A stretch of DNA of 64,000 nt from Solimonas sp. K1W22B-7 (GTDB lineage: Bacteria; Pseudomonadota; Gammaproteobacteria; Nevskiales; Nevskiaceae): positions 2,046,001 to 2,110,000 of the forward strand of contig NZ_CP031704.1 in NCBI RefSeq assembly GCF_003428335.1. Direction: 5' to 3'. The notes under the pieces are model-generated. The model had not been told where the DNA came from. It worked only from the letters and a program-made list of their open reading frames with translations, and did no database searches. Every line of letters starts with the position of its first letter. Position 1 is the stretch's first letter. Made by a program: the position numbers and the translations under genes. Shown here one piece after another: positions 23,278 to 41,613 of the stretch.

Positions 23278-23299
23278 CTACCGGCTTTCGCCGGTATGA
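22295..23299 (+). CDS. IS30-family transposase
   Basis: A 334-residue transposase. The N-terminal helix-turn-helix is at 8-48 (GESIRQIAAALDRAPSSISR). The DDE catalytic residues are Asp178 (HWEADLM), Asp235 (TFDNGTEF) and Glu269 (KGGVENANGRLRRWLP). The length is normal and the gene is intact. The reading frame runs through the right inverted repeat and stops at a TGA in the flanking REP arm, so the last seven or so residues (ending RLSPV) come from target DNA. Confidence 0.93.
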   Translation: MGRKSFEQFGIEERCEISRRRQAGESIRQIAAALDRAPSSISRELKRNTGATGYQSVYAGEQARARRWQGSRLLRDAELQARVLEGLRRGWSPEQVSRRLAQQDLQISYESIYRFIAAQIARTNDFSWRLYLPRAKSKRGFRGRKGGSPAEHIQQRVSIEKRPKAAADRRQAGHWEADLMLFARYGQAILTLHERTSRLTAIVRQPSKAAAPVAQTLQALLAPLPPALRRSITFDNGTEFALHYTLHQPLGLQTYFCDPHSPWQKGGVENANGRLRRWLPRGTNVEDLSPDQLLQIAQIYNHTPRKCLGFKTPAEVFAKVLHFKCESTYRLSPV

Positions 23300-23301
23300 C
23301 G
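23281..23301. repeat. Right part of the interrupted REP arm
   Basis: CCGGCTTTCGCCGGTATGACG continues the inverted REP arm that begins at 22240. Joining the two halves restores a 28-bp arm matching the left arm at 26 of 28 positions. Confidence 0.75.
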
Positions 23302-23311
23302 TGTCCATGCC

Positions 23312-25332: not shown

Positions 25333-25346
25333 CGCAGGGCATCCGC

Positions 25347-26030: not shown

Positions 26031-26683
26031 CAGGAGGTCTCGCGGTTCTGGCGGATGAGGCCGGCGAACAGGCCGATGATCTCGCAGCGCTGCCGGCCCA
26101 GGTCGATCACGATGGGCGCGTAGGTCTGCTGGTCGTCGTTCTCCGACAGCAGGGTCACCATCTGGCCTTGCTGGCGGTAGCGCTTCAGCGTCAGCGTCGG
26201 CTCGCCGGTCAGGCGGTCCTCGATGGAGACGGCGACGATCTGCTGGTTGCGCGCCGTGGCCTGCTGGTGGATGCCGACCAGGTCGCCGGGCAGGATGTGC
26301 GCGCGCTCCATCGAGCGGCCCTGCACGCGGTAGAGGAAGTCGGCGCGCGGCTGGAACAGGGCGGGGTCCACGCGCAGCTGTTCCTCGACCTGATCCGGCG
26401 CCAGCACCGGCTGGCCGGCGGCGATGCGGCCCACCAGGGGCAGGCGCCAGGGGTCATTGGCAGCCAGCGCGGCATCGTCCAGGATACGGATGCCGCGCGA
26501 GGTGTCGGGCAGCAGTTCGATCAGGCCCTTGCCGGCCAGCGCACGCAGGTGCTGGTCGGCGGTCTGGCGGGTGATGCCCAGGGCAGAGGCGATGTCCCCC
26601 CGCGTCGGCGGCAGGCCCGCATCCCGCGCAAAGCGCAGGATGAAATCCATCAGGTCCTGCTGTCTGGGGGGGAGCTTGTTCAT
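26030..26683 (-). CDS. lexA: LexA-type SOS repressor
   Basis: A 217-residue LexA. The winged helix-turn-helix is at 8-65 (PTRGDIASALGITRQTADQHL). The self-cleavage site is Ala89-Gly90 in RIAAGQPV; the catalytic dyad is Ser124 (QGRSMERAHILPGD) and Lys167 (LTLKRY). It would repress the cassette and be cleaved after RecA activation. Because it heads the imu operon, it is probably a LexA2-type copy rather than the sole cell-wide regulator; that is inference. A 16-bp palindrome 16 bp upstream is its likely operator. Confidence 0.92.
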   Translation of the reverse strand: MNKLPPRQQDLMDFILRFARDAGLPPTRGDIASALGITRQTADQHLRALAGKGLIELLPDTSRGIRILDDAALAANDPWRLPLVGRIAAGQPVLAPDQVEEQLRVDPALFQPRADFLYRVQGRSMERAHILPGDLVGIHQQATARNQQIVAVSIEDRLTGEPTLTLKRYRQQGQMVTLLSENDDQQTYAPIVIDLGRQRCEIIGLFAGLIRQNRETS

Positions 26684-26840: not shown

Positions 26841-27053
26841 ATGTCCCGTTCATATTCCCTGGCCGCCGGCCTGCTGCTGGTGGCCGCACTGACGGCTTGC
26901 GGCCGTTCGGAGGCCCCTGCGGCCACCGAGCCGGGTTCCGGCCCCACCGAACCGGCGCCGCGCGTCATGCGCTGCCCGCCGGCACCGGGCGCACAGGACG
27001 TCGCGGCGCAGCCCGCCGGCAACTGCGGCGAGAACGCCGGGGCGCGCACATGA
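26841..27053 (+). CDS. Small lipoprotein coupled to the phospholipase gene
   Basis: A 70-residue predicted lipoprotein: SLAAGLLLVAALTAC gives the lipobox and acylated Cys at residue 20. The mature part is short, Pro/Ala-rich and has two further cysteines (RCPPAP and GNCGEN). Its stop overlaps the phospholipase start (ATGA). A ribosome site (GGAGAGG) lies upstream. Function unknown. Confidence 0.65.
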   Translation: MSRSYSLAAGLLLVAALTACGRSEAPAATEPGSGPTEPAPRVMRCPPAPGAQDVAAQPAGNCGENAGART

Positions 27054-29158
27054 GCGGCATGGACCGTCGCCGCTTCCTGCAACTCACTGGCGGTGCCGCC
27101 GTGGGCACGCTGTTCCCGCAGATCCTGGCCGAGGCCTTGTCGATTCCCGCGGCCAAGCGCAGCGGCACCATCCATGACGTGGAGCACGTGGTGATCCTGA
27201 TGCAGGAGAACCGCGGCTTCGATCATTATTTCGGCACGATGCGCGGCGTGCGCGGCTACGGCGACCGTTTCACCGTGCCGCAGAGCGGCGGACGCACGGT
27301 CTGGGACCAGCGCAACCTCGCCGGGCAGATCATCCGGCCGTATCACCTCGACAGCAGCATCGGCAACGCGCAGCGCGTGGACGGTACGCCGCATGGCTGG
27401 TCCGACGCGGTGCCGGCCTGGAACAAGGGCCGCTTCGGGCGCTGGCCCACGTTCAAGCAGAACCAGTCGATGGGTTATTACCGCGAGGCCGAGTTGCCGT
27501 TCCAGTTCGCGCTCGCCAATGCCTTCACGATCTGCGACGCCTATCACTGCGCCTACATGGGCAACACCAATCCCAACCGCCTGTTCATGTTCACCGGCTG
27601 GAACGATCCCCTGGGCACCGGCGGCGGCCCGCGGCTGTACAACGACAACGACGACCTCGGCCCCTCCTCGGAAGGTTTCACCTGGACCACCTATGCCGAG
27701 CGCCTGCAGGCGGCCGGCGTGTCCTGGAAGGTCTACCAGGACATGGACGACAACTTCACCGACAACTCGCTGGAGGGTTTCCGCAATTTCCGTCTTGCCT
27801 ACGAGAACCGCGAGAGTGAGCCGAACAACCCGCTGCTGCTGCGCGGCCTGAGTACGACGATGCCTGCGGGGACCTTCGACGGCCTGCGCAACGACGTGCT
27901 CGCCAACCGCCTGCCGCAGGTGTCCTACGTCGTCGCGCCCGCCGCGTACTCCGAGCACACCGGGCCGTCGAGCCCGGTGCAGGGGGGCTGGTTCATCCAG
28001 GAGACGATCCGCGCGCTGATCGCCGACCCGGCGGTGTGGAGCAAGACCGTGCTGCTGGTGATGTTCGACGAGAACGACGGTTTCTTCGACCACGTGCCGG
28101 CGCCGGCCGCGCCTTCCTACCTGCTGGGTGGCCAGGCCACGGGCGCGCTGGCCGGCGCCTCCACTGCCGACGACACCGGCGAGCGCTATGTCACCGGCCC
28201 CAACTCGCGCGATCCGAGCTTTGTCGGCAGCAGTTTCGGTCCCGGCCCGCGCGTGCCGATGTACATCATTTCGCCCTGGAGCCGCGGTGGCTGGGTCAAC
28301 TCGCAGTGCTTCGATCACACCTCGATCGTCCGCTTTCTCGAAGAGCGCTTCGGCGTCGCCGAGCCCAACATCACGCCCTATCGCCGTGCCTTCCTCGGCG
28401 ATCTCAGTTCCTGCTTCAACTTCGCCAACCCCAACGACGAGGTCTTTCCCGCGCTGCCGCAGACCACGCGCGAAGCGGCCGAAGCGCTGCGCCAGGCGCA
28501 GGAACAGCTGGCGCAGATTCCGGCGCCCACCGGCGACGCCGGCACGCTGCCGCAGCAGGAACCCGGCGTGCGCTACTCGCGCGCGCTGCCTTACGAGTTG
28601 CACGTCGAGTCACGCCGCAGCGCGCTGGGCGGGATGGAGCTGTTCTTCAGCAACACCGGCAATGCCGGTGCCGTGTTCCATGTCTACGACATGAACGATC
28701 TGGACGGCGTGCCGCATCGCTACGCGGTGGAACCGGGCAAGCAGCTGAGCCATGCCTGGAGTGCGGGCCTGTCGGGCAGCCATGACCTCTGGGTGCTGGG
28801 GCCCAATGGCTTCCATCGCCGTTTCAGCGGTGCCGGCGCACTGTCTTCCGCCGCGATACCCGAGGTCCGCGTCTGCTACGACATCGCCAATGGCGACATC
28901 AGTCTCAAGCTGCGCAACGAGGGCACGGCGGCCTGCACGTTCCGTGTCGCGGCCAATGCCTACCGCAGCGATGGTCCCTGGACGTTTACGGTGAATCCCG
29001 GCCAGGAGATCGAGCACTTCTGGGCGCTGGGCACGAGTGGCGCCTGGTATGACCTCAGCGTGACGGTGGAGGGGGACGGCAGCTTCCTGCGGCGTGTGGC
29101 GGGGCGTGTGGAGACCGGGCGGCATTCGGTCAGTGATCCAGCAATGGCGACAAGGTGA
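27050..29158 (+). CDS. Phospholipase C, phosphocholine-specific (PlcN/PlcH type), Tat-exported
   Basis: A 702-residue enzyme that would cleave phosphatidylcholine-type lipids to diacylglycerol and phosphocholine. A twin-arginine signal (DRRRFLQL, residues 5-12) directs Tat export. The phosphoesterase core starts with QENRGFDHYFGT near 52-63 and includes LLVMFDENDGFFDHV near 340. Two C-terminal beta domains of the DUF756 type follow (about 505-690). Such enzymes are often induced by phosphate starvation, which fits the phosphonate operon 1 kb away. It is translated from an ATG overlapping the small lipoprotein's stop. Confidence 0.92.
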   Translation: MSGMDRRRFLQLTGGAAVGTLFPQILAEALSIPAAKRSGTIHDVEHVVILMQENRGFDHYFGTMRGVRGYGDRFTVPQSGGRTVWDQRNLAGQIIRPYHLDSSIGNAQRVDGTPHGWSDAVPAWNKGRFGRWPTFKQNQSMGYYREAELPFQFALANAFTICDAYHCAYMGNTNPNRLFMFTGWNDPLGTGGGPRLYNDNDDLGPSSEGFTWTTYAERLQAAGVSWKVYQDMDDNFTDNSLEGFRNFRLAYENRESEPNNPLLLRGLSTTMPAGTFDGLRNDVLANRLPQVSYVVAPAAYSEHTGPSSPVQGGWFIQETIRALIADPAVWSKTVLLVMFDENDGFFDHVPAPAAPSYLLGGQATGALAGASTADDTGERYVTGPNSRDPSFVGSSFGPGPRVPMYIISPWSRGGWVNSQCFDHTSIVRFLEERFGVAEPNITPYRRAFLGDLSSCFNFANPNDEVFPALPQTTREAAEALRQAQEQLAQIPAPTGDAGTLPQQEPGVRYSRALPYELHVESRRSALGGMELFFSNTGNAGAVFHVYDMNDLDGVPHRYAVEPGKQLSHAWSAGLSGSHDLWVLGPNGFHRRFSGAGALSSAAIPEVRVCYDIANGDISLKLRNEGTAACTFRVAANAYRSDGPWTFTVNPGQEIEHFWALGTSGAWYDLSVTVEGDGSFLRRVAGRVETGRHSVSDPAMATR

Positions 29159-29177: not shown

Positions 29178-30059
29178 TTAACCCGCCCCGGACTGCAACT
29201 CGCGCACCACCTCAACGAAGGCTCCGACCAGCTGTGTATCGAGCCGTTCCTTCAGGCAGATCACCTGGGCGTTGGTGGTGATCTCGACGTCGCTGATCGG
29301 CAGCAGCTTGATGCGCGGGTCCGGTACGTGCTCGCGCGCGGAAACAAAGGAGATGCCGAGTCCCTGGGCGACCGCTTCGCGGATCGCCTCGCGGCTGCCG
29401 ATCTGCATCGCCACCCTGACCGCGACATTGCGCTCCAGCAGGGCCTGCTCGAACAATCGCCGCGTGGTGGAGCCGCGCTCGCGGAAGATCAGCGGCTGGC
29501 CGGCCAGCTGTTCCAGGCGCAGGCTGGCGTGGCGCGCCAGGGGATGACCGGCCGGGAGGATCAGCATCACCGGGTGCTCGCGGTAGGGGAACACCGCCAG
29601 TTCCTCATGGGCGTCGAGCTGCGCCAGCACGCCGATCTCGCATTCGTAGCGCAGCACCTTCTCCAGCACTTCCTTCGAGTCGCCGAGCATCATCTCCACC
29701 GTCACCGAGGGATAGCGGCGATGAAAGGCGGCCAGCATCTCCACCGCGTGGAAGGGGCCGACGGCGGCCACGCGCAGCAGGCCGCTGCGTAGCGCCCCGG
29801 CCTCCGCCAGCAGCGTGTAGGCCTCGCTTTCGGCGTCGAAGTAGCGATTGGTGACCCGCAGCAGCCGCTCGCCGAGTTCGGTAGGGCGCACCTCGCGGCC
29901 CTGGCGCAGGAACAGGCGCACGCCGAAACGCTCCTCCAGTTCCTTGACCAGGGTCGAGACGCTGGGCTGCGAGACGCCGAGCTGGCGTGCGGCGGCGGAG
30001 AAGCCGTGCTGGCGCGCGACGGCGTGGAAGGCGCGTAGATGACTGTGACCTATAGGCAT
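29178..30059 (-). CDS. LysR-family regulator of the phosphonate operon
   Basis: A 293-residue LysR-type regulator. The winged HTH is at 4-62 (FHAVARQHGFSAAARQLGVS) and the periplasmic-binding-like effector domain follows from about 90. It is divergent from the aminophosphonate operon, separated by 106 bp that hold a perfect 20-bp palindrome, so it very likely controls that operon. The effector could be 2-aminoethylphosphonate or a breakdown product; this is inference. Confidence 0.9.
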   Translation of the reverse strand: MPIGHSHLRAFHAVARQHGFSAAARQLGVSQPSVSTLVKELEERFGVRLFLRQGREVRPTELGERLLRVTNRYFDAESEAYTLLAEAGALRSGLLRVAAVGPFHAVEMLAAFHRRYPSVTVEMMLGDSKEVLEKVLRYECEIGVLAQLDAHEELAVFPYREHPVMLILPAGHPLARHASLRLEQLAGQPLIFRERGSTTRRLFEQALLERNVAVRVAMQIGSREAIREAVAQGLGISFVSAREHVPDPRIKLLPISDVEITTNAQVICLKERLDTQLVGAFVEVVRELQSGAG

Positions 30060-30075
30060 GGATTATAGTTTAGTA

Positions 30076-30095
30076 CGGATTTACCAATAAATCCG
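30076..30095. promoter_or_regulatory. LysR operator candidate upstream of the phosphonate operon
   Basis: CGGATTTACCAATAAATCCG is a perfect palindrome, A/T-rich in otherwise GC-rich DNA, starting 17 bp upstream of the LysR start and ending 70 bp before the first operon gene. It contains the T-N11-A core form of LysR boxes. A lone CTGTCAT (a Pho-box half) lies at 30106-30112 without a clear second half. Confidence 0.65.
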
Positions 30096-30165
30096 ATAGA
30101 ACGCCTGTCATCGTCGATGCCTAGGATGTCGCTCCATCACACCGAGGGCGCGGCTGCGCCGGCAG

Positions 30166-31359
30166 ATGGAAACCATGGGAACTCTCTCGACAACACCCGC
30201 GCTTAGCGGCGAGCTGGCGCAGCGGCTGCGCCTGCCGGCCACGGCCTGGCTGCCGGCGCAACCGGTGCCGGTGCGCTTCGGCGCCGGGGTGTTCGCCGAG
30301 CTGGGGCAACAGCTGCGCGGGCGTCCCTATGTGCTGCTGACCTATCCGCAGCCGCGTTTCACCGCGCTGGCGCGGCGGCTGGCGGTCGGCGCCGGCCAGC
30401 CGCGGCAGCTGCTGGACACGGTGCGGCCGAACCCGACGCTGGCGGACCTCGAGACACTGGCGGCACCGCTGCGCGGCCTGGGCGGCCCGACGCCGGTGCT
30501 GGTCGCCCTCGGCGGCGGTTCGGTGATCGACAGCGCCAAGGTCGTCGCCGCGCTGGCCGCGGCGCCCGGACTGGAGCTGCGTGCGCTGCTGGCGCAGCCG
30601 GCCGCCGCCGCGGCGCGCGCCTGGCCGGTGATCGCGGTGCCCACGACCGCCGGCACCGGCAGCGAGGTCACGCCCTGGGCCACGGTCTGGGACCCGGCGA
30701 ACGACCGCAAGCATTCGCTGAGCCGGCCCGACCTGTTCCCGGAGCTGGCGCTGGTCGATCCCGAGCTGACGCTGGGCGCGCCGCGCGGGCTGACGCTGCA
30801 GACCGGGCTGGACGCGCTGTCGCACGCGCTGGAAAGCCTGTGGAACCGCAACGCCGGCCCCTGCAGCAGCGTGCTGGCCGTGGCCGCCGCCCGGCGCGTG
30901 CTGGAGACCTTGCCGCGGCTGCTCGAAAACCCCGGCGACCTCGAATTGCGTACGCGCCAGGCCGAGGCCTCGCTGCTCGCCGGCCTGGCCTTCGCGCAGA
31001 CGCGCACGGCGCTGGCGCATGAGCTGTCCTACCCGCTGACCCTGCGGCACGGCGTGCCGCACGGCATCGCCTGCTCGTTCACGCTGCCACAGATCATGCA
31101 GGCCGTGATCGGCGCGGATGCCGACTGCGATCACGCGCTGGCGGAAATCTTCGGCGCCGACCTGCAGGCCGGCGTGGCGACGCTGCGCCGCTTCCTGCGG
31201 GACCTCGGCGTCGGCCTGTCGCCGGCCGACTACGGCGTCGCCGAAGACGAATGGCACGCGATCCAGGAGGCTGCCGGACAGGGTCCGCGCGGCCGCAATT
31301 TTCTGGCGGCATCTGCCGCCGACCTGTCGTTTTTTCCCAACACCGACCCCACCACCTAA
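30166..31359 (+). CDS. Iron-containing alcohol dehydrogenase, probable phosphonoacetaldehyde reductase
   Basis: A 397-residue group III (iron-type) alcohol dehydrogenase. The NAD(P) motif LGGGSVIDSAK is near residue 117; metal ligands are expected in GLDALSHALE and in the YPLTLRHGVPHG segment. Relatives in phosphonate clusters (PhpC/PsrA-type) reduce phosphonoacetaldehyde to 2-hydroxyethylphosphonate. Here it is the first gene of the operon containing phnX, which uses the same aldehyde. An alternative ATG at 30175 has a better-spaced GGAA. The substrate is inferred from context. Confidence 0.82.
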   Translation: METMGTLSTTPALSGELAQRLRLPATAWLPAQPVPVRFGAGVFAELGQQLRGRPYVLLTYPQPRFTALARRLAVGAGQPRQLLDTVRPNPTLADLETLAAPLRGLGGPTPVLVALGGGSVIDSAKVVAALAAAPGLELRALLAQPAAAAARAWPVIAVPTTAGTGSEVTPWATVWDPANDRKHSLSRPDLFPELALVDPELTLGAPRGLTLQTGLDALSHALESLWNRNAGPCSSVLAVAAARRVLETLPRLLENPGDLELRTRQAEASLLAGLAFAQTRTALAHELSYPLTLRHGVPHGIACSFTLPQIMQAVIGADADCDHALAEIFGADLQAGVATLRRFLRDLGVGLSPADYGVAEDEWHAIQEAAGQGPRGRNFLAASAADLSFFPNTDPTT

Positions 31360-31368
31360 GGGAGTTTT

Positions 31369-32655
31369 ATGCGCTTCATCCACCTGGCGCCTCTCGTCGG
31401 CGTCTGCACTCTCGCTTTGTCCGGCGCCGTCGCGGCGCAGGAAGTCCTGCCGACGATTCCGGTCGTGCCGCTGCATCCGGCGCAGGACGAAATCACGTTC
31501 AAGGTCAAGACCCGCGGCGGCTTCGGCATCGAGTCCAGCGACGGCATGGCCGGCTTCGAACTGGAAGGCCGCGCCGCCTACGATGTCGATGTCTTCGACG
31601 GTCTCTACAACCTCAACGGCCATGGCGACAGCGGCAGCGAATCGGAACTGCGCCGCCTGCGCTTCGGCTTCAGCGGCTGGTACACGAAGAACTGGAACTA
31701 CTCGATCCTGATCGACATCGAGGACGGCGACCGCGCCATCGACGATTCCGTGACCACGATCGACACCGCGATGCTGCAGTACACCGGCTTCAAGTATGCC
31801 GACCTGACGATCGGCCGCTTCAAGCGCCCGGTGTCGATGGAGGTGCTGACCAGTTCCAACTGGCTGTCCTTCAACGAGCAGTCCTTCATCTGGGAACTGG
31901 CGCCGGCCAACGACATCGCCAAGTTCTCGCTGATGGCCAGCAAGCTGTTCGAGTTCGGCGGCAGCGGCCTGCTGTACCAGTTCGCAGTGTCCGACGACTA
32001 CCAGGAAGACCTGCCGGCCAAGAGCGGCAGCGACAGCCACGCCATCAATGCCCGCGCCGTGTACACGCCCTGGGCGGAGAAGGGCCGCGTGCTGCACTTC
32101 GGCGCCTCCTATGGCGACCAGAACCCGGGCGAGGCGGCGACCACGCGCGTGCGCTCGCGCCTGGGCGTTCACGGCATCGACCGCTTCGTGCTGCTCGACA
32201 CCATCGACATCGACAGCGACCGCCAGTACGCGCTGGAAGCCGCGCTGATCCAGGGGCCGTTCTCGCTGCAGGCCGAGTATGTCAGCCGCGCGATCGGCGG
32301 CCGCAGCGGCGATCCGGACGTCGATGTCGACGGCTGGTACCTCCAGGGCACCTGGACGCTGACCGGCGAGCCGCGCGGCTACAAGCGCAAGGACGGCCGC
32401 TTCGATCGCGTCGATCCGAAGAACAAGGACTACGGCGCCGTCGAGCTGGTGGCGCGCGCGCAGCAGGGCACGGTGTCGCCGGACGGCGGCACGGAAGTCG
32501 AAGCCAGCGGCTACCAGTTCGGCGTCAACTGGTATCCGCTGCGCTCCATCAAGCTGATGCTCGACTACACCACCGCGTCGGTCGACAACATCGACACCCA
32601 GGATGCCGGTGACGACGGCAACGCCATCACCAGCCGCATCCAGTGGGTTTTCTAA
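31369..32655 (+). CDS. Phosphate-selective porin O/P family (OprP-like)
   Basis: A 428-residue outer-membrane barrel protein with a Sec signal (cleavage after AVAA, about residue 24). Alternating strands, the LRRLRFGFSGWYTKNWNY segment, IGRFKRPVSMEVLTSS and the C-terminal aromatic residue (IQWVF) are typical of the OprP/OprO family. It should admit phosphate, pyrophosphate or phosphonates through the outer membrane. GGGAG lies upstream. It is 9 bp after the dehydrogenase gene and 10 bp before the binding-protein gene. Confidence 0.87.
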   Translation: MRFIHLAPLVGVCTLALSGAVAAQEVLPTIPVVPLHPAQDEITFKVKTRGGFGIESSDGMAGFELEGRAAYDVDVFDGLYNLNGHGDSGSESELRRLRFGFSGWYTKNWNYSILIDIEDGDRAIDDSVTTIDTAMLQYTGFKYADLTIGRFKRPVSMEVLTSSNWLSFNEQSFIWELAPANDIAKFSLMASKLFEFGGSGLLYQFAVSDDYQEDLPAKSGSDSHAINARAVYTPWAEKGRVLHFGASYGDQNPGEAATTRVRSRLGVHGIDRFVLLDTIDIDSDRQYALEAALIQGPFSLQAEYVSRAIGGRSGDPDVDVDGWYLQGTWTLTGEPRGYKRKDGRFDRVDPKNKDYGAVELVARAQQGTVSPDGGTEVEASGYQFGVNWYPLRSIKLMLDYTTASVDNIDTQDAGDDGNAITSRIQWVF

Positions 32656-32665
32656 GGAGTTCCCG

Positions 32666-33733
32666 ATGAAACATTGCAAGCACAAGATCGCCGCGCTGCT
32701 GGCGTTGACCCTGATCGCCGCCTGCGGCAAGAAAGAGCAGGCTGCCGAACCCGCCGCTGCCGCGCCGGCGCCGGCCGCGAAGACCGAACTGACGGTCTAC
32801 ACCGCCTTCGAGCCCGAGCAGCTGCCCGGCTTCAAGCAGGCCTTCGAAGCCGCGAACCCCGAGATCACCCTGAGCTGGGTGCGCGATTCCACCGGCGTGA
32901 TCACCGCACGCCTGCTGGCGGAGAAGGACAATCCGCGCGCCGATGCGGTCTGGGGCCTGGCCGCCAGTTCTCTGATGCTGCTGAAGGCGCAAGGCATGCT
33001 CGCGCCCTACGCGCCGCAGGGTGTCGAAAAGCTCGACCCGCGCTTCGTCGACAGCGCGACGCCGCCGCAGTGGACCGCCGACGACGCCTGGGAGGCGGCG
33101 ATCTGCGTCAACACGGTCGAGGCGCAGAAGCACAAGCTGCCGATGCCGAAGAGCTGGGCGGACCTGGCCAAGCCGGTCTACAAGGGCTACATCGTGATGC
33201 CGAATCCGAACTCCTCCGGCACCGGCTTCCTCGCGGTGTCCGGCTGGCTGCAGCAGATGGGCGAGGAGCCGGCCTGGAAGTACATGGACGCGCTGCATGC
33301 CAACGTCGCGCGCTACACCCACTCCGGCTCCAAGCCCTGCAAGGAAGCCGCGGCGGGCGAGATCGCAATCGGCATCTCCATCGGCTACACCGGCGCCAAG
33401 CAGAAGGCCAAGGGCGCCCCGATCGAGATCGTGCACGCCGCCGAGGGCGTGGGCTGGGACATGGAGGCCAACGCCATCGTCGCCGGCACGAAGAAGCTCG
33501 AGGCCAGCAAGAAGCTGATGGACTTCGCCGTCTCCGAGGCCGCCAACCAGCTCTACAACGAGGCTTATCCGGTGGTCGCGCTGCCGGGCATCGCCAAGCC
33601 GGTGGAGCACTACCCGGCGAACCTGGCGGACAAGCTGATCAAGAACGACTTCGCCTGGGCCGCGACCAACCGCGAACGCATTCTCGCCGAGTGGCAGAAG
33701 CGCTACGACGGCAAGTCCGAGCCGAAGTCGTAA
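32666..33733 (+). CDS. 2-aminoethylphosphonate ABC transporter, substrate-binding lipoprotein
   Basis: A 355-residue binding protein of the iron(III)/aminoethylphosphonate class. The lipobox LIAAC puts the acyl Cys at residue 20. The mature protein starts with LTVYTAFEPEQLPGFKQAFE, and contains NPNSSGTGFLAVSGWLQQMGE and GYTGAKQKAKGAPIEIV, which fit the PhnS/AepX-type proteins that capture 2-aminoethylphosphonate. A strong AAGGAG precedes the ATG. A stable hairpin follows before the ATPase gene. Confidence 0.88.
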   Translation: MKHCKHKIAALLALTLIAACGKKEQAAEPAAAAPAPAAKTELTVYTAFEPEQLPGFKQAFEAANPEITLSWVRDSTGVITARLLAEKDNPRADAVWGLAASSLMLLKAQGMLAPYAPQGVEKLDPRFVDSATPPQWTADDAWEAAICVNTVEAQKHKLPMPKSWADLAKPVYKGYIVMPNPNSSGTGFLAVSGWLQQMGEEPAWKYMDALHANVARYTHSGSKPCKEAAAGEIAIGISIGYTGAKQKAKGAPIEIVHAAEGVGWDMEANAIVAGTKKLEASKKLMDFAVSEAANQLYNEAYPVVALPGIAKPVEHYPANLADKLIKNDFAWAATNRERILAEWQKRYDGKSEPKS

Positions 33734-33745
33734 ACCAGGCAGGCT

Positions 33746-33765
33746 GCCCGCCGGCGACGGCGGGC
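33746..33765 (+). promoter_or_regulatory. Intercistronic hairpin with GCGA loop
   Basis: GCCCGCCG-GCGA-CGGCGGGC: an 8-bp perfect stem closed by a GNRA-type tetraloop in the 42-bp gap between the binding protein and ATPase genes. Such hairpins commonly protect binding-protein mRNA from decay and lower downstream expression. Confidence 0.5.
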
Positions 33766-33775
33766 GGCAATTCCC

Positions 33776-34828
33776 ATGTCCGAAACCATCCTCAACATCC
33801 GCGGCCTGCACAAGCGCTACGGCCAGGCCACGGCGCTGCGCGACATCGACCTCGACGTGCGCGCGGGCGAGTTCGTCTGCTTCCTGGGTCCCTCCGGCTG
33901 CGGCAAGACCACGCTGCTGCGCGCGATCGCCGGGCTCGATCCGCAGACCTCGGGAACGATCCAGCTGTACCAGCAGGACATCTCGCGGCGGCCGCCGGAG
34001 CAGCGCGGTTTCGGCATCGTGTTCCAGTCCTACGCCTTGTTTCCCAACCTGAGCGTGCTGGACAACGTCACCTACGGCCTGGTCGGCAAGGGACTGCCCC
34101 GCGCCCGGCGGGAGGCCCGCGGGCGCGAGCTGCTGTCCCTGGTCGGCCTGGCCGGTTTCGATGCCAAGTATCCCGGCCAGTGCTCCGGCGGCCAGCAGCA
34201 GCGCATCGCGCTGGCGCGGGCGCTGGCGCCGGAGCCGAGCCTGCTGCTGCTGGACGAGCCCCTGTCGGCGCTGGACGCGAAGGTGCGCGTGCACCTGCGC
34301 AGCGAGATCAAGGCGCTGCAGGAAAAGCTCGGCGTCACCACGATCATGGTCACGCACGACCAGGAGGAGGCGCTGACCATGGCCGACCGCATCGTGGTGA
34401 TGGACCATGGCGCGATCGAGCAGGTCGGCACGCCGCAGGACATCTACGAGCGGCCGGCCAGCCGCTTCGTCGCCGAATTCGTCGGTGCGATGAACTTCCT
34501 GCCGGCGCGGGTATTGCGGCCCGACGCGCTGCTGCTCGGCGAGCGCGAGCTGCGGTTGCCGCGGCCTTGCCTGCACCCGGTTGGCGAAAAGGTGCTTGCC
34601 GCCATCCGCCCGGAGCACCTGCGCCTGGACGGGCAGGGGCTGCCGGCGACGCTGACCTGGCGCGAGTTCCTCGGCAGCCACACGCGCCTGTGGCTGCAGC
34701 TCGACGACGGCACCGAAGCGCAGCTGCTGCTTGCGCCCCAGGCCTGCGACGAGTTGCCGGCGGATGGCAGCCGGGTCGCACTCGGGTTCGATCCGCGTCA
34801 CCTGCACGTGTACAAGGCCAAGGCATGA
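33776..34828 (+). CDS. 2-aminoethylphosphonate ABC transporter, ATPase
   Basis: A 350-residue ABC ATPase. Walker A is GPSGCGKTT (about 41-49), the signature is CSGGQQQRIALARAL, and Walker B is LLLLDEPLSALD. The C-terminal TOBE-like region (VLAAIRPEHLRL) is characteristic of the spermidine/iron/AEP group (PhnT type). It energises import with the fused permease, whose ATG overlaps this gene's stop (ATGA). Confidence 0.9.
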   Translation: MSETILNIRGLHKRYGQATALRDIDLDVRAGEFVCFLGPSGCGKTTLLRAIAGLDPQTSGTIQLYQQDISRRPPEQRGFGIVFQSYALFPNLSVLDNVTYGLVGKGLPRARREARGRELLSLVGLAGFDAKYPGQCSGGQQQRIALARALAPEPSLLLLDEPLSALDAKVRVHLRSEIKALQEKLGVTTIMVTHDQEEALTMADRIVVMDHGAIEQVGTPQDIYERPASRFVAEFVGAMNFLPARVLRPDALLLGERELRLPRPCLHPVGEKVLAAIRPEHLRLDGQGLPATLTWREFLGSHTRLWLQLDDGTEAQLLLAPQACDELPADGSRVALGFDPRHLHVYKAKA

Positions 34829-36513
34829 GGCTCGCCTTGCCGCTGGCGCCGCTGGCTCCCACGCGGGGCGACTGGGTTGCGCGCGCGCTGATGGCACTGG
34901 GCGTGCTGGCGATCGTTGCCGGCCTGGTGCTGCCGCTGTTCGTCCTGGGCGAGCGCGCCTTTCTCGACCGCGCCGGCCAGTGGATCGGCGGCGGCAACTT
35001 CCTGGCCTACGTCGGCAACCCGGCGCTGCGCATCGCGCTGTGGCATTCGCTGTGGGTGTCGGCGCTGGCGACGCTGATCGTCGTCACGCTGGCCTTCTTC
35101 GCCGCCTGGGCGGTCACGCGCACGGCGATGCCGGGGCGCGGCCTGTTCCGCGTGGTCCTGTTCCTGCCGCTGCTGGCGCCCTCGCTGCTGGCGGGCTTGT
35201 CGCTGGTGTACTGGTTCGGCGCGCAAGGCGCCGCCAAGGGTCTGCTGTTCGGTGCGCCGCTGTACGGGGCCGTCGGTATCGTGCTCGGCTCCTGCTTCTG
35301 GACCCTGCCGCATGCCTTCCTGATCCTGATCACCGCCTTCGCCAACGCCGACGGCCGCGTCTACGAGGCCGCGCGGGTGCTCGGCGCCAGCCCCTTCCGC
35401 GTATTCCGCACCGTGACGCTACCCTCGGTGCGCTATGGCGTGGTCAGCGCCGGCTTTGTCGTATTTACCCTGGTATTCACCGACTTCGGTGTGCCCAAGG
35501 TCATCGGCGGGTCCTACAACATGGTCGCCACCGACATCTACAAGCAGGTCATCGGCCAGCAGAACTTCGGCATGGGCGCGGCGATCAGCCTGATGCTGCT
35601 GCTGCCGGCGGTGCTGAGCTTCTTCGCCGAGCGCTGGGCCTCGAAACGCCAGGACGCCGGCCTGGGCTCGCGTGCCACGCGCCACGTGCCGGCGCCCGGG
35701 CCGTGGCGCGACCGCTGTGCCGCCGCCTACGCGCTGCTGCTGTCGGGCCTGATCCTGGCGATGATCGGCATGGCCTTCTATGCCTCGCTGGTGAAGTACT
35801 GGCCCTACGACCTGTCGCCGACGCTGGCGCACTACCGCTTCGAGTCCGTACCCGGCTCGGGCTGGCGCGCCTTCGGCAACTCGCTGCGGCTGGCGCTGTA
35901 TGTCGCCTGCATCGGTACCGCCTGCGTCTTCCTGTGGGCCTACCTGACCGAGAAGGGCCGCAGTCTCGGCGCATTGCGCGGGCTGTTCCGCTTCCTGGTG
36001 ATGCTGCCGCTGGCGATTCCCGGTCTGGTGCTGGGCCTGGGCTACGTGTTCTTCTTCAATGCGCCCGGCAATCCGCTGAACGCCCTCTACGGCGGCATGG
36101 CGCTGCTGGTGCTGTGCACCATCGTGCATTTCTACAGCGTCGCGCAGCTGACCGCGGCGAGCGCCATCAACCAGCTCGACCGCGAGTTCGAGTCCGCCAG
36201 CAGCATGCTGCGCGCGCCGTTCTGGCGCCTGCTCGGCCGCGTCACCCTGCCGGTGTGCCTGCCGGCGGTGCTGGATGTCTGGTTCTACCTGTTCGTCAAC
36301 GCCATGACCACCGTGTCGGCGGTGATCTTCCTGTACTCGCCGGACACCATGCTGGCCTCGGTGGCCGCGCTGAACCTGGACGATTCCGGCGAGACCGCCG
36401 GTGCCGCGGCGATGGCCAGCCTGATCGTCGTCGCCTGTGCGCTGGTGCGCCTGGCGCACTGGGCGGTTTCCCGATACCTGCTGGCGCGCATGCAGCGCTG
36501 GCGCAATCCCTGA
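34825..36513 (+). CDS. 2-aminoethylphosphonate ABC transporter, fused permease
   Basis: A 562-residue integral membrane protein with two permease halves of about six helices each. EAA-type loops are seen in each half: VYEAARVLGASPFRVFRTVTLP near residue 180 and FESASSMLRAPFWRLLGRVTLP near 460. A hydrophilic linker lies at about 270-290. This is the PhnU/PhnV-fused form associated with aminoethylphosphonate systems. It overlaps the ATPase gene by 4 bp. Confidence 0.9.
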   Translation: MRLALPLAPLAPTRGDWVARALMALGVLAIVAGLVLPLFVLGERAFLDRAGQWIGGGNFLAYVGNPALRIALWHSLWVSALATLIVVTLAFFAAWAVTRTAMPGRGLFRVVLFLPLLAPSLLAGLSLVYWFGAQGAAKGLLFGAPLYGAVGIVLGSCFWTLPHAFLILITAFANADGRVYEAARVLGASPFRVFRTVTLPSVRYGVVSAGFVVFTLVFTDFGVPKVIGGSYNMVATDIYKQVIGQQNFGMGAAISLMLLLPAVLSFFAERWASKRQDAGLGSRATRHVPAPGPWRDRCAAAYALLLSGLILAMIGMAFYASLVKYWPYDLSPTLAHYRFESVPGSGWRAFGNSLRLALYVACIGTACVFLWAYLTEKGRSLGALRGLFRFLVMLPLAIPGLVLGLGYVFFFNAPGNPLNALYGGMALLVLCTIVHFYSVAQLTAASAINQLDREFESASSMLRAPFWRLLGRVTLPVCLPAVLDVWFYLFVNAMTTVSAVIFLYSPDTMLASVAALNLDDSGETAGAAAMASLIVVACALVRLAHWAVSRYLLARMQRWRNP

Positions 36514-36524
36514 AGGAGTTTCCC

Positions 36525-37355
36525 TTGAACTACCGCTACTCCCGGCGCTATGCCGGGCCGCTCGAAGCCGTGATCCTGGATTGGGCCGGCACCGTGATCG
36601 ACTTCGGCTGCGTCGCCCCGGCGGAGGCGTTCACCGAACTGTTCCGCCGCGAGGGCGTGCCGCTGACCGTGGCGCAGGCACGCGAGCCGATGGGCACCGA
36701 GAAGCGCGAGCACATCCGCCGCGTGCTGCGCATTCCTGCAGTGGCCGCGGGCTGGCAACAGGCCAAGGGCGCGGAAGCGACCGAGGCCGACATCGACCGC
36801 CTGTACCACGACTTCCTGCCGATCCAGCTGGAGACGATCCGCCAGCGCGCGCAGATGATCCCCGGCGCGGTGGAGCTGATCGGCCGCCTGCGCGAGCGCG
36901 GCCTCAAGGTTGGCGCCAACACCGGCTACAACCGCGAAATGATCGCGCTCTGCGAGGCAGCCGCGCGCGGGCAGGGCTATGCCCCGGACGTCAGCCTCGC
37001 CGCCGAGGACGCGCCGCGCGGCCGGCCTTCGGCTGACCTGGCGCTGCTCAATGCGGTGCAGCTGGGGGTGTCCTGCGTGCAGGCCTGCGTCAAGGTCGAC
37101 GACACCGTGCCGGGCATCGAGGAAGGTCTCAACGCCGGCATGTGGACTGTCGCCGTCGCCGTGTCCGGCAACGAGGTCGGCCTGGCGCCGGACGAGTGGG
37201 CTGCGCTGGATGCCGAGGCGCAGCAGGCGCGCCGCGCCGCGGCGGTGCGACGGCTGTCGCAGGCCGGCGCGCACTATGTGATCGACAGCGTCGCCGACCT
37301 GGAGGACTGCCTCGGCGATATCGAAGCGCGCCTGGCCGCGGGCGACCAGCCCTGA
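36525..37355 (+). CDS. phnX: Phosphonoacetaldehyde hydrolase (phosphonatase), TTG start
   Basis: A 276-residue HAD-superfamily enzyme that splits phosphonoacetaldehyde to acetaldehyde and phosphate. The nucleophile is Asp19 in ILDWAGTVIDFG. The Schiff-base lysine is Lys60 in EPMGTEKREHIR (Lys53 in the Bacillus enzyme), with the conserved Met56. ANTGYNREM and VKVDDTVPGIEEGLNAGMW complete the HAD motifs. The start is TTG at 36525 with AAGGAG seven bases upstream; no ATG suits, so automated callers may truncate it. Confidence 0.93.
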   Translation: MNYRYSRRYAGPLEAVILDWAGTVIDFGCVAPAEAFTELFRREGVPLTVAQAREPMGTEKREHIRRVLRIPAVAAGWQQAKGAEATEADIDRLYHDFLPIQLETIRQRAQMIPGAVELIGRLRERGLKVGANTGYNREMIALCEAAARGQGYAPDVSLAAEDAPRGRPSADLALLNAVQLGVSCVQACVKVDDTVPGIEEGLNAGMWTVAVAVSGNEVGLAPDEWAALDAEAQQARRAAAVRRLSQAGAHYVIDSVADLEDCLGDIEARLAAGDQP

Positions 37356-37365
37356 GGGATTGATG

Positions 37366-38319
37366 ATGCGAACAGCGCTGCGGTTCTCCCATGCGCGGCC
37401 AGTGGCGGTTTTGCTGGCCGTGCTTTTTCTTGCCGCCTGCGGGCAGAGCGAGGCGCCTGGCGGCGATCGTGAAGCGCGCGTGCTGGTGATCGGCATCGAC
37501 GGGCTGCGCACCGACGCCCTGCAGGGCGCCGATACGCCGAACATCGATCGCCTGATCGCGGAGGGTGCGTTCGACGACCGCTCGCAGGTGGACTACGTCA
37601 CCGTCAGCGGTCCCGGCTGGAGCAGCATGCTGACCGGTGTGTGGTGCGACAAGCACGGCGTGCGCGACAACTCCTTCGACGGCTCCAACTACGACGCCTA
37701 TCCGCACTTCTACCGCCATGTCCGCGAGCTGCGTCCGGACCTGGTCACCGTGTCCTACGCGCACTGGGCACCGATCAACGAAAACATCCTGCGCAACGAG
37801 GCGGATATTGTCGGGCTCGGCAGCGACGAGGAGGTCGCACAACTCACCGCCAAGGCCCTGCGCGAGCGCGACGTGCACGTCGTGTTCGCGGATTTCGACG
37901 ATGTGGATCATGCCGGTCACAGCTGCTGTTTCAGTCCGCTCAGCGCCAACTACCGCGACGCGATCGAACTGACCGACCGCTACGTCGGCGTCATCGTCGA
38001 TGCGCTGAAGAGCCGCCCCCGCTATGCCGAAGAGAACTGGCTGGTGCTGATGGCGACCGACCATGGCGGCTCCGGCGTCAGCCATGGCCGCGATGAGCCG
38101 GAGCACCGCAACACCTGGTTTCTCAGCAGCGGCGCGGCTTCGGCGCCACTGACCCCGGGATCGACCCGGGTGACCGATCTGGCGGTCACCGCGATGATCC
38201 ACCTGGGCATCGCGATCCGCCCCGAGTGGAACCTGGACGGCATTGCCGTCGGCCTGAAGAACGCCCCGGCGATGACCCGCCGCGAATCGCGCAACAGCTG
38301 CGAGGCGCAGGCGCCATGA
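37366..38319 (+). CDS. Alkaline-phosphatase-superfamily lipoprotein
   Basis: A 317-residue predicted lipoprotein (lipobox LFLAAC) of the alkaline phosphatase/nucleotide pyrophosphatase fold. Metal-site motifs are IGIDGLRTDAL, DFDDVDHAGH and ATDHGGSG; the nucleophile is probably in VTVSGPGWSSMLTG. It would act on a phosphate or phosphonate ester in the periplasm; phosphonoacetate hydrolase belongs to the same fold. Starts at 37363 or 37366 are both possible; GAGGGA is better spaced for 37366. It overlaps the next phosphatase gene by 4 bp. Confidence 0.8.
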   Translation: MRTALRFSHARPVAVLLAVLFLAACGQSEAPGGDREARVLVIGIDGLRTDALQGADTPNIDRLIAEGAFDDRSQVDYVTVSGPGWSSMLTGVWCDKHGVRDNSFDGSNYDAYPHFYRHVRELRPDLVTVSYAHWAPINENILRNEADIVGLGSDEEVAQLTAKALRERDVHVVFADFDDVDHAGHSCCFSPLSANYRDAIELTDRYVGVIVDALKSRPRYAEENWLVLMATDHGGSGVSHGRDEPEHRNTWFLSSGAASAPLTPGSTRVTDLAVTAMIHLGIAIRPEWNLDGIAVGLKNAPAMTRRESRNSCEAQAP

Positions 38320-39905
38320 CGCACATCCGGCACCCGCGCCAGGGCGTTTCGCGACGGCGCCTGCTGCAGGCTGCGGCCGGGCTGCCGCTGCTGGCGGCCT
38401 GCCATGACAGCACGCCCCTCCGTCCGGAGTCCGCAGAGCAGCGGGTCTTCCAGCACGGTGTCGCTTCCGGCGACCCCCTGGCTGACCGCGTGATCCTGTG
38501 GACCCGCATCTCCGCTGCGCAGGCACCGGCGACGGTGCGCTGGGAGGTCTACCGCGATCCCTTCCTGACGTTGCGTGTCACGCAGGGCGAGGGCGAGGTC
38601 AGCGGCGACAGCGACGGGTGCTACAAGGTCGATGTTTCCGGCCTCGACGCCGGTCGGACCTACTACTACCGCTTTCTTGCGCTGGACCAGGTTTCGCCGA
38701 CCGGGCGCACCCGCACGCTGCCGCGGGGCGCGGTCGAGCGGCTGCGCCTGGCGGTCTGTTCCTGCGCCTACCTGCCGGACGAGCCCGGCACGCGTTTCCA
38801 CAACGCCTACGGCCAGATTGCGCAACGCGCCGATCTCGATGCGGTGCTGCACCTGGGCGATTACGTCTACGCCGACAGCGACCTGTCGCTGGCCGAGTAC
38901 CGCGCGCGCCATGCGCAATACAAGGCGCAGAGCGCGGAGCTGCGCGAGGCGCACCGGCAGCATCCCTTCATCACGGTCTGGGACGACCACGAGACCACTG
39001 ACAACTGCTGGCAGGATGGCGGCTACCAGCCGCCGGACAAGCCGCTCATCCCGTTCGCCGAGCGCAAGCAGAACGCGATGCGCGCCTACCACGAGTGGCT
39101 GCCGATCCGCACGCCCGATCCCGCCGACCTTGGCCGCATCTGGCGCAGTTTCGACTTCGGCGACCTGCTCACGGTGGTGGCGCCGGAGACGCGGCTGCAC
39201 GCACGTGCGGCACAGGCCTATTCCTTCAACCGGGTCGGCAGCCCGATCGCGGGTGCCGAGGGCCGCGAACTGCTCGGCGCGGAGCAGATGGACTGGCTGC
39301 GCGGGACGCTGCGCGCCGCGCCGACGCAATGGAAGCTGTTCATGAACCCGGTGCAGATCGGCCAGCTTTACGCCGGACTGCCGGATGAAGAGGGTGGCGG
39401 CACCCGCTACCGCAACATGGACCAGTGGGACGGCTATGCCGCCGAGCGCGGGCGCCTGTTCGACATCCTCGACGGTGCCGACGGCGGCGCGCCGGTGCAG
39501 GACCTGATCTTCATGACCGGCGACTGGCACTGCCAGTTCGCCAACGACGTGCTGCGCGCGCCCTATGGGGCGGCCTATCGCGAGCGCGGCGAGGGCGTGC
39601 TCGGCACGGAGTTCACGATTCCCTGCGTGTCCTCGGGGCTGGAAGGCTACGAGCCGGCGGAACTGTTCGCCGCCAATCCCCACTTCAAGAATCATGAGTT
39701 CCCGGCACGCCACGGGCATGCGCTGGTGGACCTGCGACGCGATACCGCAACGGTGGAGTTCTGGCACACCGACACGGTCGAGACCCGCGAGCACCGCTAT
39801 CGGCTCAACGTCGGCTTTCCGCTCACGGCCGGCGCCAACCGCATCGGCGAGCTGCTTCGAACGCCCACGCCCACCAACACCGAGGCGCCGTCGCTGGCGC
39901 CCTGA
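38316..39905 (+). CDS. PhoD-like alkaline phosphatase, Tat lipoprotein
   Basis: A 529-residue PhoD-family phosphatase/phosphodiesterase. The N-terminus carries a twin-arginine motif (SRRRLLQ) and a lipobox (LLAAC), so it is probably a Tat-exported lipoprotein. Core motifs are GVASGDPLADRVILWTR, LHLGDYVYAD, VWDDHETTDN and TGDWHCQFAN, which supply the metal ligands. It should release phosphate from esters outside the cytoplasm. Its ATG overlaps the preceding phosphatase stop (ATGA). Confidence 0.9.
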   Translation: MTHIRHPRQGVSRRRLLQAAAGLPLLAACHDSTPLRPESAEQRVFQHGVASGDPLADRVILWTRISAAQAPATVRWEVYRDPFLTLRVTQGEGEVSGDSDGCYKVDVSGLDAGRTYYYRFLALDQVSPTGRTRTLPRGAVERLRLAVCSCAYLPDEPGTRFHNAYGQIAQRADLDAVLHLGDYVYADSDLSLAEYRARHAQYKAQSAELREAHRQHPFITVWDDHETTDNCWQDGGYQPPDKPLIPFAERKQNAMRAYHEWLPIRTPDPADLGRIWRSFDFGDLLTVVAPETRLHARAAQAYSFNRVGSPIAGAEGRELLGAEQMDWLRGTLRAAPTQWKLFMNPVQIGQLYAGLPDEEGGGTRYRNMDQWDGYAAERGRLFDILDGADGGAPVQDLIFMTGDWHCQFANDVLRAPYGAAYRERGEGVLGTEFTIPCVSSGLEGYEPAELFAANPHFKNHEFPARHGHALVDLRRDTATVEFWHTDTVETREHRYRLNVGFPLTAGANRIGELLRTPTPTNTEAPSLAP

Positions 39906-39928
39906 TCCATTATCTTCAGAGAGCCGTC

Positions 39929-41065
39929 ATGAGCACACAGCAATCCTATGACCTCGCCGTTGTCGGCGCCGGTATCCTCGGCCTGGCCCATGCACTCGCC
40001 GCCGCCCGGCGCGGCCTGCGCGTCGCCCTGATCGACCGCAGCGAGCGGGCCGTGGGTGCCTCGGTGCGCAACTTCGGCCTGATCTGGCCTATCGGCCAGC
40101 CGGCCGGGCCGCTGCTGCAGCGCGCGCTGCGGGCGCGCGAGGTCTGGCTGGAACTGAAGCAGGCCGCCGGCCTGCCGGTGGAGGAGACGGGATCGCTGCA
40201 GGTGGCCCGTCATCCCACCGAGATGGCGGTGCTGGAGGAGTTTGTCGCGCGCAACCGCGAATCCGGCTATGACATCGCCCTGCTGACGCCGGACGAAGCC
40301 GTCGCCCGTTCGCCGCTGCTGCGCCGCGAGGGCCTGCTGGGCGCGCTGTGGAGCGGCAGCGAGCTGATCGCCACCTCGCCGCTGTGCATCCGGGCGCTGC
40401 CGGGATACCTCGCCGAGCGCTATGGCGTCACGGTCATGCAGGACTGCGCGGTAACGCGTGTCGAGAGCGGCCTGCTGCACAGCGAGCGCGGCACGATCCG
40501 CGCCTCGCGCATCGTGGTCTGCAGCGGCCCCGACCTGCAGACCCTGTTCCCGGAGGTGCTCAAGGACCTGGTGGTGTGCAAGCTGCAGATGCTGTCGGCG
40601 GCGCCGCTGGACCCGGCGTTCCGGCTCGGGCCGGGGCTCTGTGCCGGCCTGACGCTGCTGCACTACGATGCCTTCCTCGGCTGCACCGACTCGCTGCCGG
40701 CCTACCGGCAGTACGCCGAGGAACGCTACCCGGAGCAGCGCCGCTGGGGTGTCCACGTGCTGGTGTCGCAGCATGCCGGCGGCGAGCTGATCATCGGCGA
40801 CTCGCACGAGTACAGCCGCACCACGGTCGAGCCCTTCGACCGCGAGGAGATCAACGTGGCGATCCTCGACTACCTGAACGAGTTCGCGCAGCTGCCGCCG
40901 CACCGCATCACGCGGCGCTGGCAGGGTGTCTATCCCAAGCTCAAGGGCGGCAGCGAACTGGTGGTGGATCCGCTGCCGGGCGTCACCGTGGTCAACGCCC
41001 CTGGCGGCGCCGGCATGACCCTGTCCTTCGGCCTGGCCGAAGAAGTGCTGGCATCGCGGCTATGA
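39929..41065 (+). CDS. FAD-dependent amine oxidase of phosphonate operons (TIGR03364-type)
   Basis: A 378-residue glycine/D-amino-acid-oxidase-like flavoprotein. The FAD motif VVGAGILGLAHALAA is at 11-25, SVRNFGLIWPIGQ near 46-58, and the C-terminal NAPGGAGMTLSFGLAEE matches the family end. The phosphonate-linked clade is proposed to oxidise aminophosphonates, and some relatives act on N-methylated 2-aminoethylphosphonate to give phosphonoacetaldehyde. That fits here, because phnW is absent and phnX is present. It overlaps the HD gene by 4 bp. Confidence 0.87.
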   Translation: MSTQQSYDLAVVGAGILGLAHALAAARRGLRVALIDRSERAVGASVRNFGLIWPIGQPAGPLLQRALRAREVWLELKQAAGLPVEETGSLQVARHPTEMAVLEEFVARNRESGYDIALLTPDEAVARSPLLRREGLLGALWSGSELIATSPLCIRALPGYLAERYGVTVMQDCAVTRVESGLLHSERGTIRASRIVVCSGPDLQTLFPEVLKDLVVCKLQMLSAAPLDPAFRLGPGLCAGLTLLHYDAFLGCTDSLPAYRQYAEERYPEQRRWGVHVLVSQHAGGELIIGDSHEYSRTTVEPFDREEINVAILDYLNEFAQLPPHRITRRWQGVYPKLKGGSELVVDPLPGVTVVNAPGGAGMTLSFGLAEEVLASRL

Positions 41066-41613
41066 ACCCCGGGAGTCTCCAGGGTCTGCTGGACCTGCTG
41101 GTCGCGCGTGGTGGCGCGCAGTACGGCGGCGAGCCGGTGACGCAACTGGCGCATGCGCTGCAGACCGCCACGCTGGCGGAGCAGGCCGGCGAGCCGGCGG
41201 AACTGATCGCCGCCGCGCTGCTGCACGACCTGGGGCATTTCACCGACGGCGCCGACGTCGAGCGTGCCGGGCAGGGCATCGACGACCGGCACGAGCGACG
41301 CGCCCTGCCACTGCTGATGCGCTGGTTCGGGCCCGGGGTGGTGGAGCCGGTGCGCCTGCACGTCGAGGCCAAGCGCTACCTTTGCACCGTCGAGCCTCGA
41401 TACATGGATGAACTCAGCGCAGCGTCGCTCGGCAGCCTGGCGCTGCAGGGCGGGGTGTTCCGTCCGGAGGAAGCCGAGGCCTTCATCCGCCAGCCCCATG
41501 CCGGGGCTGCCGTGCGCCTGCGGCGCTACGACGACCTGGCCAAGGACCCGCGCCGTGCCACCCCGGGGCCGGCGCACTTCCTGCGCTATCTGCAGGCCGC
41601 GGCGCGGTCCTGA
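41062..41613 (+). CDS. PhnZ-like HD-domain phosphonate dioxygenase
   Basis: A 183-residue HD protein of the phosphonate-operon clade. Residues matching PhnZ are in place: Tyr21 and Glu24 (YGGE, substrate gating), His31, His55-Asp56 (LLHDLGH), His77, His100, Lys104 and Asp157 or 158. PhnZ is a mixed-valent diiron enzyme that cleaves 2-amino-1-hydroxyethylphosphonate to glycine and phosphate. The usual partner hydroxylase PhnY is not in the window, so the substrate may come from elsewhere or differ. It is the last gene of the operon. Confidence 0.87.
   Translation: MNPGSLQGLLDLLVARGGAQYGGEPVTQLAHALQTATLAEQAGEPAELIAAALLHDLGHFTDGADVERAGQGIDDRHERRALPLLMRWFGPGVVEPVRLHVEAKRYLCTVEPRYMDELSAASLGSLALQGGVFRPEEAEAFIRQPHAGAAVRLRRYDDLAKDPRRATPGPAHFLRYLQAAARS

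Follow-up and report, generated by a model that had tools for sequence, protein, structure and literature searches.

A route for the degradation of 2-aminoethylphosphonate (AEP) that dispenses with the transaminase PhnW has been described in Mariniblastus fucicola (PMC10590968). The FAD-dependent amine oxidase PbfD2 acts on N-methyl-AEP and AEP with kcat/KM of 13500 and 3400 per M per s, respectively, producing phosphonoacetaldehyde (PAA), and PbfD2 together with PhnX, whose product is acetaldehyde, was named as a separate pathway; the M. fucicola cluster contains phnX and no phnW, which is apparently missing from the genome as well. PhnHD of Achromobacter, encoded by a TIGR03276-type HD-domain gene near phnX, is known from studies of soil strains grown on glyphosate (PMC11203657). 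We analyzed a 64,000-nucleotide stretch (the window; positions 2,046,001 to 2,110,000 of NZ_CP031704.1) of the complete 5,373,342-base (5.37 Mb) genome of Solimonas sp. K1W22B-7, a member of the same family as Stagnimonas aquatica. Here an operon with a FAD amine oxidase of the PbfD kind, phnX and an HD-domain gene, again with no phnW, extends to position 41613.

The oxidase gene (39929..41065, + strand) is the only one in the genome to exceed the TIGR03364 curated cut-off (402 versus 285.1 bits). The phnX gene (36525..37355, +; a TTG start was chosen) scores 330.6 bits against the TIGR01422 cut-off of 220, and its product carries the motifs of solved phosphonatases, as seen in the alignment to 3iru. 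The PhnWX pathway requires phnW, which is lacking in the source genome: the best match to the PhnW-AepZ model had 66.7 bits versus a cut-off of 360.8, while PhnW of Andreprevotia (L028), a query validated by its own 501 bits to the same model, gave no genomic match above 29 bits. A hidden phnW was rejected on these grounds; the best class V aminotransferase was far under every curated cut-off in its table. A genome-wide search for PhnJ of C-P lyase found none.

As there is no phnW, a single TIGR03364 oxidase, and a PhnX that exceeds its cut-off and has phosphonatase motifs, the FAD oxidase is the likely source of PAA. Judging by its family and by the biochemistry of M. fucicola PbfD2, it would use O2 to deaminate AEP and N-methyl-AEP, giving PAA; PhnX would then split PAA to acetaldehyde and phosphate, making a transaminase unnecessary. 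We hold these two steps to be highly probable. The initial annotation, made from the letters of the window, had likewise seen no phnW in the operon and had named the oxidase as the local PAA source, of which the first held for the complete genome and the second is likely; its suggestion that the pathway might be undescribed did not stand, since the PbfD2 plus PhnX route was published with kinetics in 2023 (PMC10590968). A TIGR03364 oxidase that probably feeds PhnX without PhnW is thus not new, and the core of the operon is one more case of a pathway already described.

In a tree of 30 FAD loci, window included (L042 was dropped from the set), the window protein falls into a clade of 16 rows with support 100/99; PhnW is present in none of these 16 stretches versus 2 of the 14 other rows. 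The PbfD2 label is likely for this protein, not proven: the difference in PhnW occurrence is small, many of the stretches are short, and the PbfD1 and PbfD2 reference sequences were left out of the tree, all of which weakens the assignment.

Close relatives of the oxidase occur in 3 of 85 genomes of the order, the window's own included, and the three other genomes of the genus had none at E 1e-60. The combination of FAD oxidase, PhnX and HD protein is not unique to the window, as it is also present in two loci of one other genus (L015 and L016) and on a plasmid of Comamonas endophytica, which carries the HD, FAD and PhnX genes without PhnW (one plasmid record was examined of 15 with the FAD gene). 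L015 and L016 share the porin and transporter of the window as well; they have no alcohol dehydrogenase, NPP or PhoD gene of the kinds discussed below, and a phnW over the cut-off is absent from both genomes (G053 and G054).

A different arrangement was seen in five cyanobacterial loci (L019, L021, L024, L029 and L041), where a relative of the FAD oxidase lies beside a HAD protein, distantly PhnX-like, in place of PhnX. A PF13343-type transporter accompanies the pair in L021 and L024; L024 also has an HD gene, and its HAD protein matched no NCBIfam model at E 1e-60. These loci may make up an uncharacterized sister system.

All eleven genes that the initial annotation had listed for the window locus, a LysR gene on the minus strand and a divergent ten-gene unit on the plus strand, were found at their coordinates. 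The ten genes encode, in order, an iron-containing alcohol dehydrogenase (Fe-ADH), an OprP/O-type porin, the transporter proteins PhnS2, PhnT2 and PhnU2, PhnX, an NPP-type phosphodiesterase, PhoD, the FAD oxidase and the HD protein. With the starts chosen here the largest gap does not exceed 42 bp; overlaps of 4 bp are present in three pairs (ATPase/permease, NPP/PhoD and FAD/HD). A terminator-like hairpin of 13 pairs followed by a T run lies at 37393-37423, within the first part of the NPP gene and shortly past phnX; it may be due to chance, with seven such sites in the terminator scan versus 4.8 expected. Promoter scanning returned no sites versus 0.8 expected.

The genes found in the window alongside the PbfD2-PhnX pair (TIGR03405-type Fe-ADH, HD oxygenase, OprP-type porin, NPP, PhoD and an adjoining phospholipase C) were catalogued for the window side of the comparison with M. 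fucicola only. Compared with the route of PMC10590968, the variation lies in the Fe-ADH, the HD protein and the esterases, for which entry of a new substrate is plausible. We favor, with somewhat better than even confidence, an aerobic phosphonate-scavenging operon in which several entry enzymes would converge on PAA, the substrates being imported, presumably, by the porin and the ABC transporter. Two elements of this picture go beyond the initial annotation: the Fe-ADH as a possible second PAA-forming enzyme and the phospholipase C next to the operon.

Both were studied with the help of a survey of loci with TIGR03405 Fe-ADH genes. The family is uncommon; a sample of 369 genomes of the class contained it in 3 at E 1e-60, the window's included. 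Apart from the window, the survey comprised 23 loci, 14 of them from the 399 genomes in the order of G306 and 9 from plasmid records; L059 (210 bits, under the cut-off, kept as outgroup) and the second place of plasmid record H5 were left out. Absences are weak evidence in the shorter stretches (those with G handles; L085 with 9.8 kb, L086 with 13.3 kb, L019 with 5.9 kb).

The phosphocholine-specific phospholipase C gene (27047..29158, +) is convergent with the LysR gene and directly beside it; the protein scores 900.9 bits versus the TIGR03396 cut-off of 580.25 and has PF04185 and PF05506 domains. Within the operon are the exported NPP-type phosphodiesterase (37360..38319, +; PF01663, 82.5 bits; solved NPP relatives at no more than 41.8 bits), with a lipoprotein-like signal read from the sequence, and a PhoD-like phosphatase/phosphodiesterase (38316..39905, +; PF09423, 240.8 bits; solved PhoD relatives), with a twin-arginine-like signal read likewise. 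A role of the NPP protein as the phosphonoacetate hydrolase PhnA was rejected for want of a match to TIGR02335, a model that does match L077 and L098.

Since phospholipase C cuts the lipid side of phosphorus, it would release AEP from a phosphonolipid, and release of phosphonate head groups is a possible function of the window enzyme. More generally, lipids or esters may be the source from which NPP, PhoD and the adjoining phospholipase C liberate phosphonates; this is the least certain step of the scheme and, with controls that were mixed, we consider it less likely than not. On the other hand, PhoD, phospholipase C and OprP-type porins are well known from ordinary phosphate scavenging; together with NPP they could serve the general response to phosphate starvation, releasing ordinary phosphate, and be no more than neighbors of the phosphonate genes, a reading to which we would give an even chance.

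Several observations link such esterases to phosphonate genes rather than to general starvation. AP/NPP-type genes are present at 4 of the 23 Fe-ADH loci (L086, L087, L092 and L098), phospholipase C genes at two of them (L092 and L098) and at 2 of the 29 other FAD loci; four FAD loci have weaker NPP matches, from 24 to 82 bits. The Fe-ADH clusters of L092 and L098 stand next to AP-type and phospholipase C genes; relatives of NPP that carry PAN domains are located 3′ of PhnX in L086 and before phnD in L087; and in L015 and L016 two tandem phospholipase C genes follow the HD gene. Among three Fe-ADH plasmid records having phospholipase C, two have it <10 kb from Fe-ADH. These esterase-bearing loci come from few lineages, with adjacency judged from plasmid records and fetched stretches. 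Other controls count against release of phosphonates and fit the starvation kit: the best phospholipase C place was within 10 kb of PhnX in just one of five plasmid records with both, the two closest other relatives of the NPP protein among the 369 genomes (L060 and L061) have no gene of the phosphonate query set in their stretches of 14-18 kb, and, as we saw above, L015 and L016 do without NPP and PhoD. All in all, ordinary phosphate scavenging accounts for the exported esterase genes as well as release of phosphonates does, or better.

The exported NPP-type phosphodiesterases of L086 (10951-12408) and L087 (12813-14312) have two N-terminal PAN domains each, which might bind glycans or proteins; both belong to LysR-phnDCE-FeADH-phnX clusters, where the gene is the last one in L086 and next to phnD in L087. 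In a plasmid of Variovorax sp. PDNC026 (L098, 8947-19049) genes for Fe-ADH, PhnA, PhnY, an AP-type phosphodiesterase and phospholipase C are consecutive on one strand. A cluster of the LysR-phnDCE-FeADH-phnX type on a Comamonas antarctica plasmid (L092) resembles the window in its LysR gene, its Fe-ADH, its PhnX without PhnW and a phospholipase C gene convergent with that of LysR; unlike the window, it has a PhnDCE importer, no FAD oxidase and no HD gene.

The Fe-ADH itself (30166..31359, +; NCBI name PsrA) scores 425.5 bits versus the TIGR03405 cut-off of 423.7. At 14 of the 23 loci the stretch contained a PAA-consuming enzyme, either PhnX (6) or PhnA with PhnY (8); four PhnX, two PhnA and two PhnY calls passed a check against curated cut-offs. 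PhnW was not nearby in 13 of these 14 loci and was nearby in 2 of all 23. As to the genomes, phnW over the cut-off was missing in 6 of 14 with Fe-ADH, and TIGR03364 was found in 3 of the 10 searched; three genomes (G306, G627 and G654) had Fe-ADH with PhnX or PhnA and PhnY and neither phnW nor TIGR03364 over the cut-off (PbfA, PbfB and PbfC were not searched). What the PhnX and the PhnA-PhnY clusters have in common is PAA, not acetaldehyde; thus, in the simplest reading of this gene context, the TIGR03405 enzyme makes PAA, and the obvious alcohol would be 2-hydroxyethylphosphonate (HEP). Oxidation of HEP to PAA, a second entry into the pathway, is therefore the reaction we find most likely for the Fe-ADH of the window, at about even odds.

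There are arguments on the other side. No PAA-consuming enzyme was present in the stretch at 9 of the 23 loci; the window Fe-ADH is just 1.8 bits above its cut-off and has a long branch in the tree; and L015 and L016 retain the core without Fe-ADH. In addition, the importer of the window operon is of the PF13343 class, the AEP-specific type, and, according to PMC8316502, AepX of this class is highly specific for AEP whereas PhnD is promiscuous; PhnD is present at 13 of the 23 Fe-ADH loci, and the PF13343 type only at the two with PhnW.

Two other roles of Fe-ADH, to both of which the context is poorly suited, were weighed against HEP oxidation. The enzyme could only reduce the acetaldehyde made by PhnX to ethanol, leaving the oxidase as the sole source of PAA. 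It is true that PhnX yields acetaldehyde (as stated for the pathway in PMC10590968), that relatives of Fe-ADH include ethanol and lactaldehyde enzymes, and that Fe-ADH is beside PhnX at 6 of 23 loci; yet at 8 of the 14 PAA-consuming loci the partners are PhnA and PhnY (four proteins checked versus curated cut-offs), which give acetate rather than acetaldehyde. Disposal of acetaldehyde is disfavored on this ground as the main role and we regard it as improbable. Equally improbable, in our view, is that Fe-ADH is a PAA reductase making HEP from AEP-derived PAA, as was proposed for phpC in AEP operons in PMC9381506. Two Vibrio homologues are annotated as phosphonoacetaldehyde reductase, and a PepM-like motif was detected at 1 of the 23 loci; however, the three genomes named above have no recognized source of PAA to be reduced (phnW or TIGR03364), and the frequent PhnD importer, too, is at odds with synthesis.

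Returning to Fe-ADH as a HEP dehydrogenase, the presumed iron ligands D216, H220, H285 and H299 are invariant in all 23 rows used, window included (L059 and L081 were left out of this count). R375 and N378 are invariant in the same rows, with the outgroup gapped there; their role in phosphonate binding would be a guess. The window row groups with L090 in the tree (support 82/26), on the long branch mentioned above, and we therefore claim no origin for the gene. The name PsrA may rest on a source that we did not find.

For PbfF, the authors of PMC12366243 weighed a role as HEP dehydrogenase and found by assay that it does not apply; the Fe-ADH clusters supply a concrete candidate. In the 2023 review PMC10574752 the string ‘hydroxyethylphosphon’ does not occur anywhere in the text, and among the matches listed for the open PMC literature (titles and starts of abstracts, subscription literature being outside this scope) neither a HEP dehydrogenase in catabolism nor phospholipase C in AEP operons was reported. 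A broader proposal would join the pieces: an undescribed HEP dehydrogenase opening a C-P lyase-free route (through PhnX or PhnY plus PhnA) beside the PbfD oxidase, with exported phosphodiesterases or phospholipase C first freeing HEP or AEP from polysaccharide esters or phosphonolipids, so that one locus would lead from lipid or polymer to phosphate. This proposal is doubtful; we had rated it somewhat higher, short of an even chance, and lowered it because two esterase controls were unfavorable and the type of importer is better suited to AEP.

The question is of interest since esters of methylphosphonate and HEP make up to 20% of the phosphorus in marine high-molecular-weight organic matter (PMC9381506), and the HEP breakdown reported in PMC5649143 proceeds through C-P lyase, ethylene being released. 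A hydrolytic HEP route, if true, would alter the reading of such genomes. While the oxidase route is already established, the Fe-ADH and the exported esterases hint at substrates undescribed for such operons.

The last gene of the operon encodes the HD-domain protein (41062..41613, +). It is one bit short of the TIGR03276 curated cut-off (213.6 versus 214.6), TIGR03276 nonetheless being its best family; against solved structures it scores 122 bits with TmpB and 82 bits with PhnZ. Like the HD oxygenases PhnZ, TmpB and GmPhnZ1 it has the diiron ligands and the YxxE loop (Y21-x-x-E24, H31, H55, D56, H77, H100 and D157 are retained), a loop tied to binding of the substrate amino group in PMC8177086. 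By these residues the protein most likely cleaves 1-hydroxy-2-aminoethylphosphonate directly to phosphate, an assignment we see as reasonably probable. Unlike the PhnZ and TmpB systems, the window operon contains no PhnY*/TmpA-type hydroxylase. Two PhyH-domain genes elsewhere in the genome match no such NCBIfam model: one had no match at E 0.001, the other matched a chlorinating-enzyme model far under its cut-off. With no hydroxylase partner in the operon, the 1-hydroxy-aminophosphonate would need an outside source. In the survey counts given in PMC8154272, phnZ is beside 15 of 1,186 phnWX clusters and beside 24 of 75 phnWAY clusters. The overlap of the HD gene with the FAD oxidase gene distinguishes the window from the Achromobacter case. 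That the main substrate of the oxidase is a hydroxylated aminophosphonate, with the HD protein and not PhnX as partner, is the least likely of the alternatives: the 4-bp overlap, the joint presence at 8 of 30 FAD loci (window included) and the TIGR03364 description quoted in PMC10590968, which suggests 1-hydroxy-2-aminoethylphosphonate as substrate, would agree with it, while the PbfD enzymes characterized in the same paper oxidize N-methyl-AEP and AEP, and 22 of the 30 FAD loci have no HD gene in the stretch.

The remaining genes of the locus are concerned with regulation and import. The LysR-family regulator (29178..30059, −) is under the curated cut-off of TIGR03339, its best family, which is aminoethylphosphonate-associated (301.3 versus 341.1 bits). 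An inverted repeat with 8-bp arms (30076..30095, no strand) between the LysR and Fe-ADH genes was a weak candidate for the LysR operator; it was rejected, as 71 palindromes with such arms are present in the window and the repeat is not shared by the 15 related LysR upstream regions examined. The phosphate-selective O/P-type porin (31369..32655, +) has 194.8 bits to PF07396. All three AEP transporter proteins are over their cut-offs: the substrate-binding protein PhnS2 of PF13343 class (32666..33733, +; TIGR03261, 490 versus 392.75), the ATPase PhnT2 (33776..34828, +; TIGR03265, 462.8 versus 457.7) and the fused permease PhnU2 (34825..36513, +; TIGR03262, 747.4 versus 593.25).

Upstream, at 19078-26683, an SOS mutasome cassette appears to have been split by an insertion: an IS30-family transposase gene (22295-23299, +) is located between the genes of a DnaE2-type error-prone polymerase (19078-22146, −) and an ImuB-like protein (23938-25698, −), past which are ImuA (25347-26030) and LexA (26030-26683).

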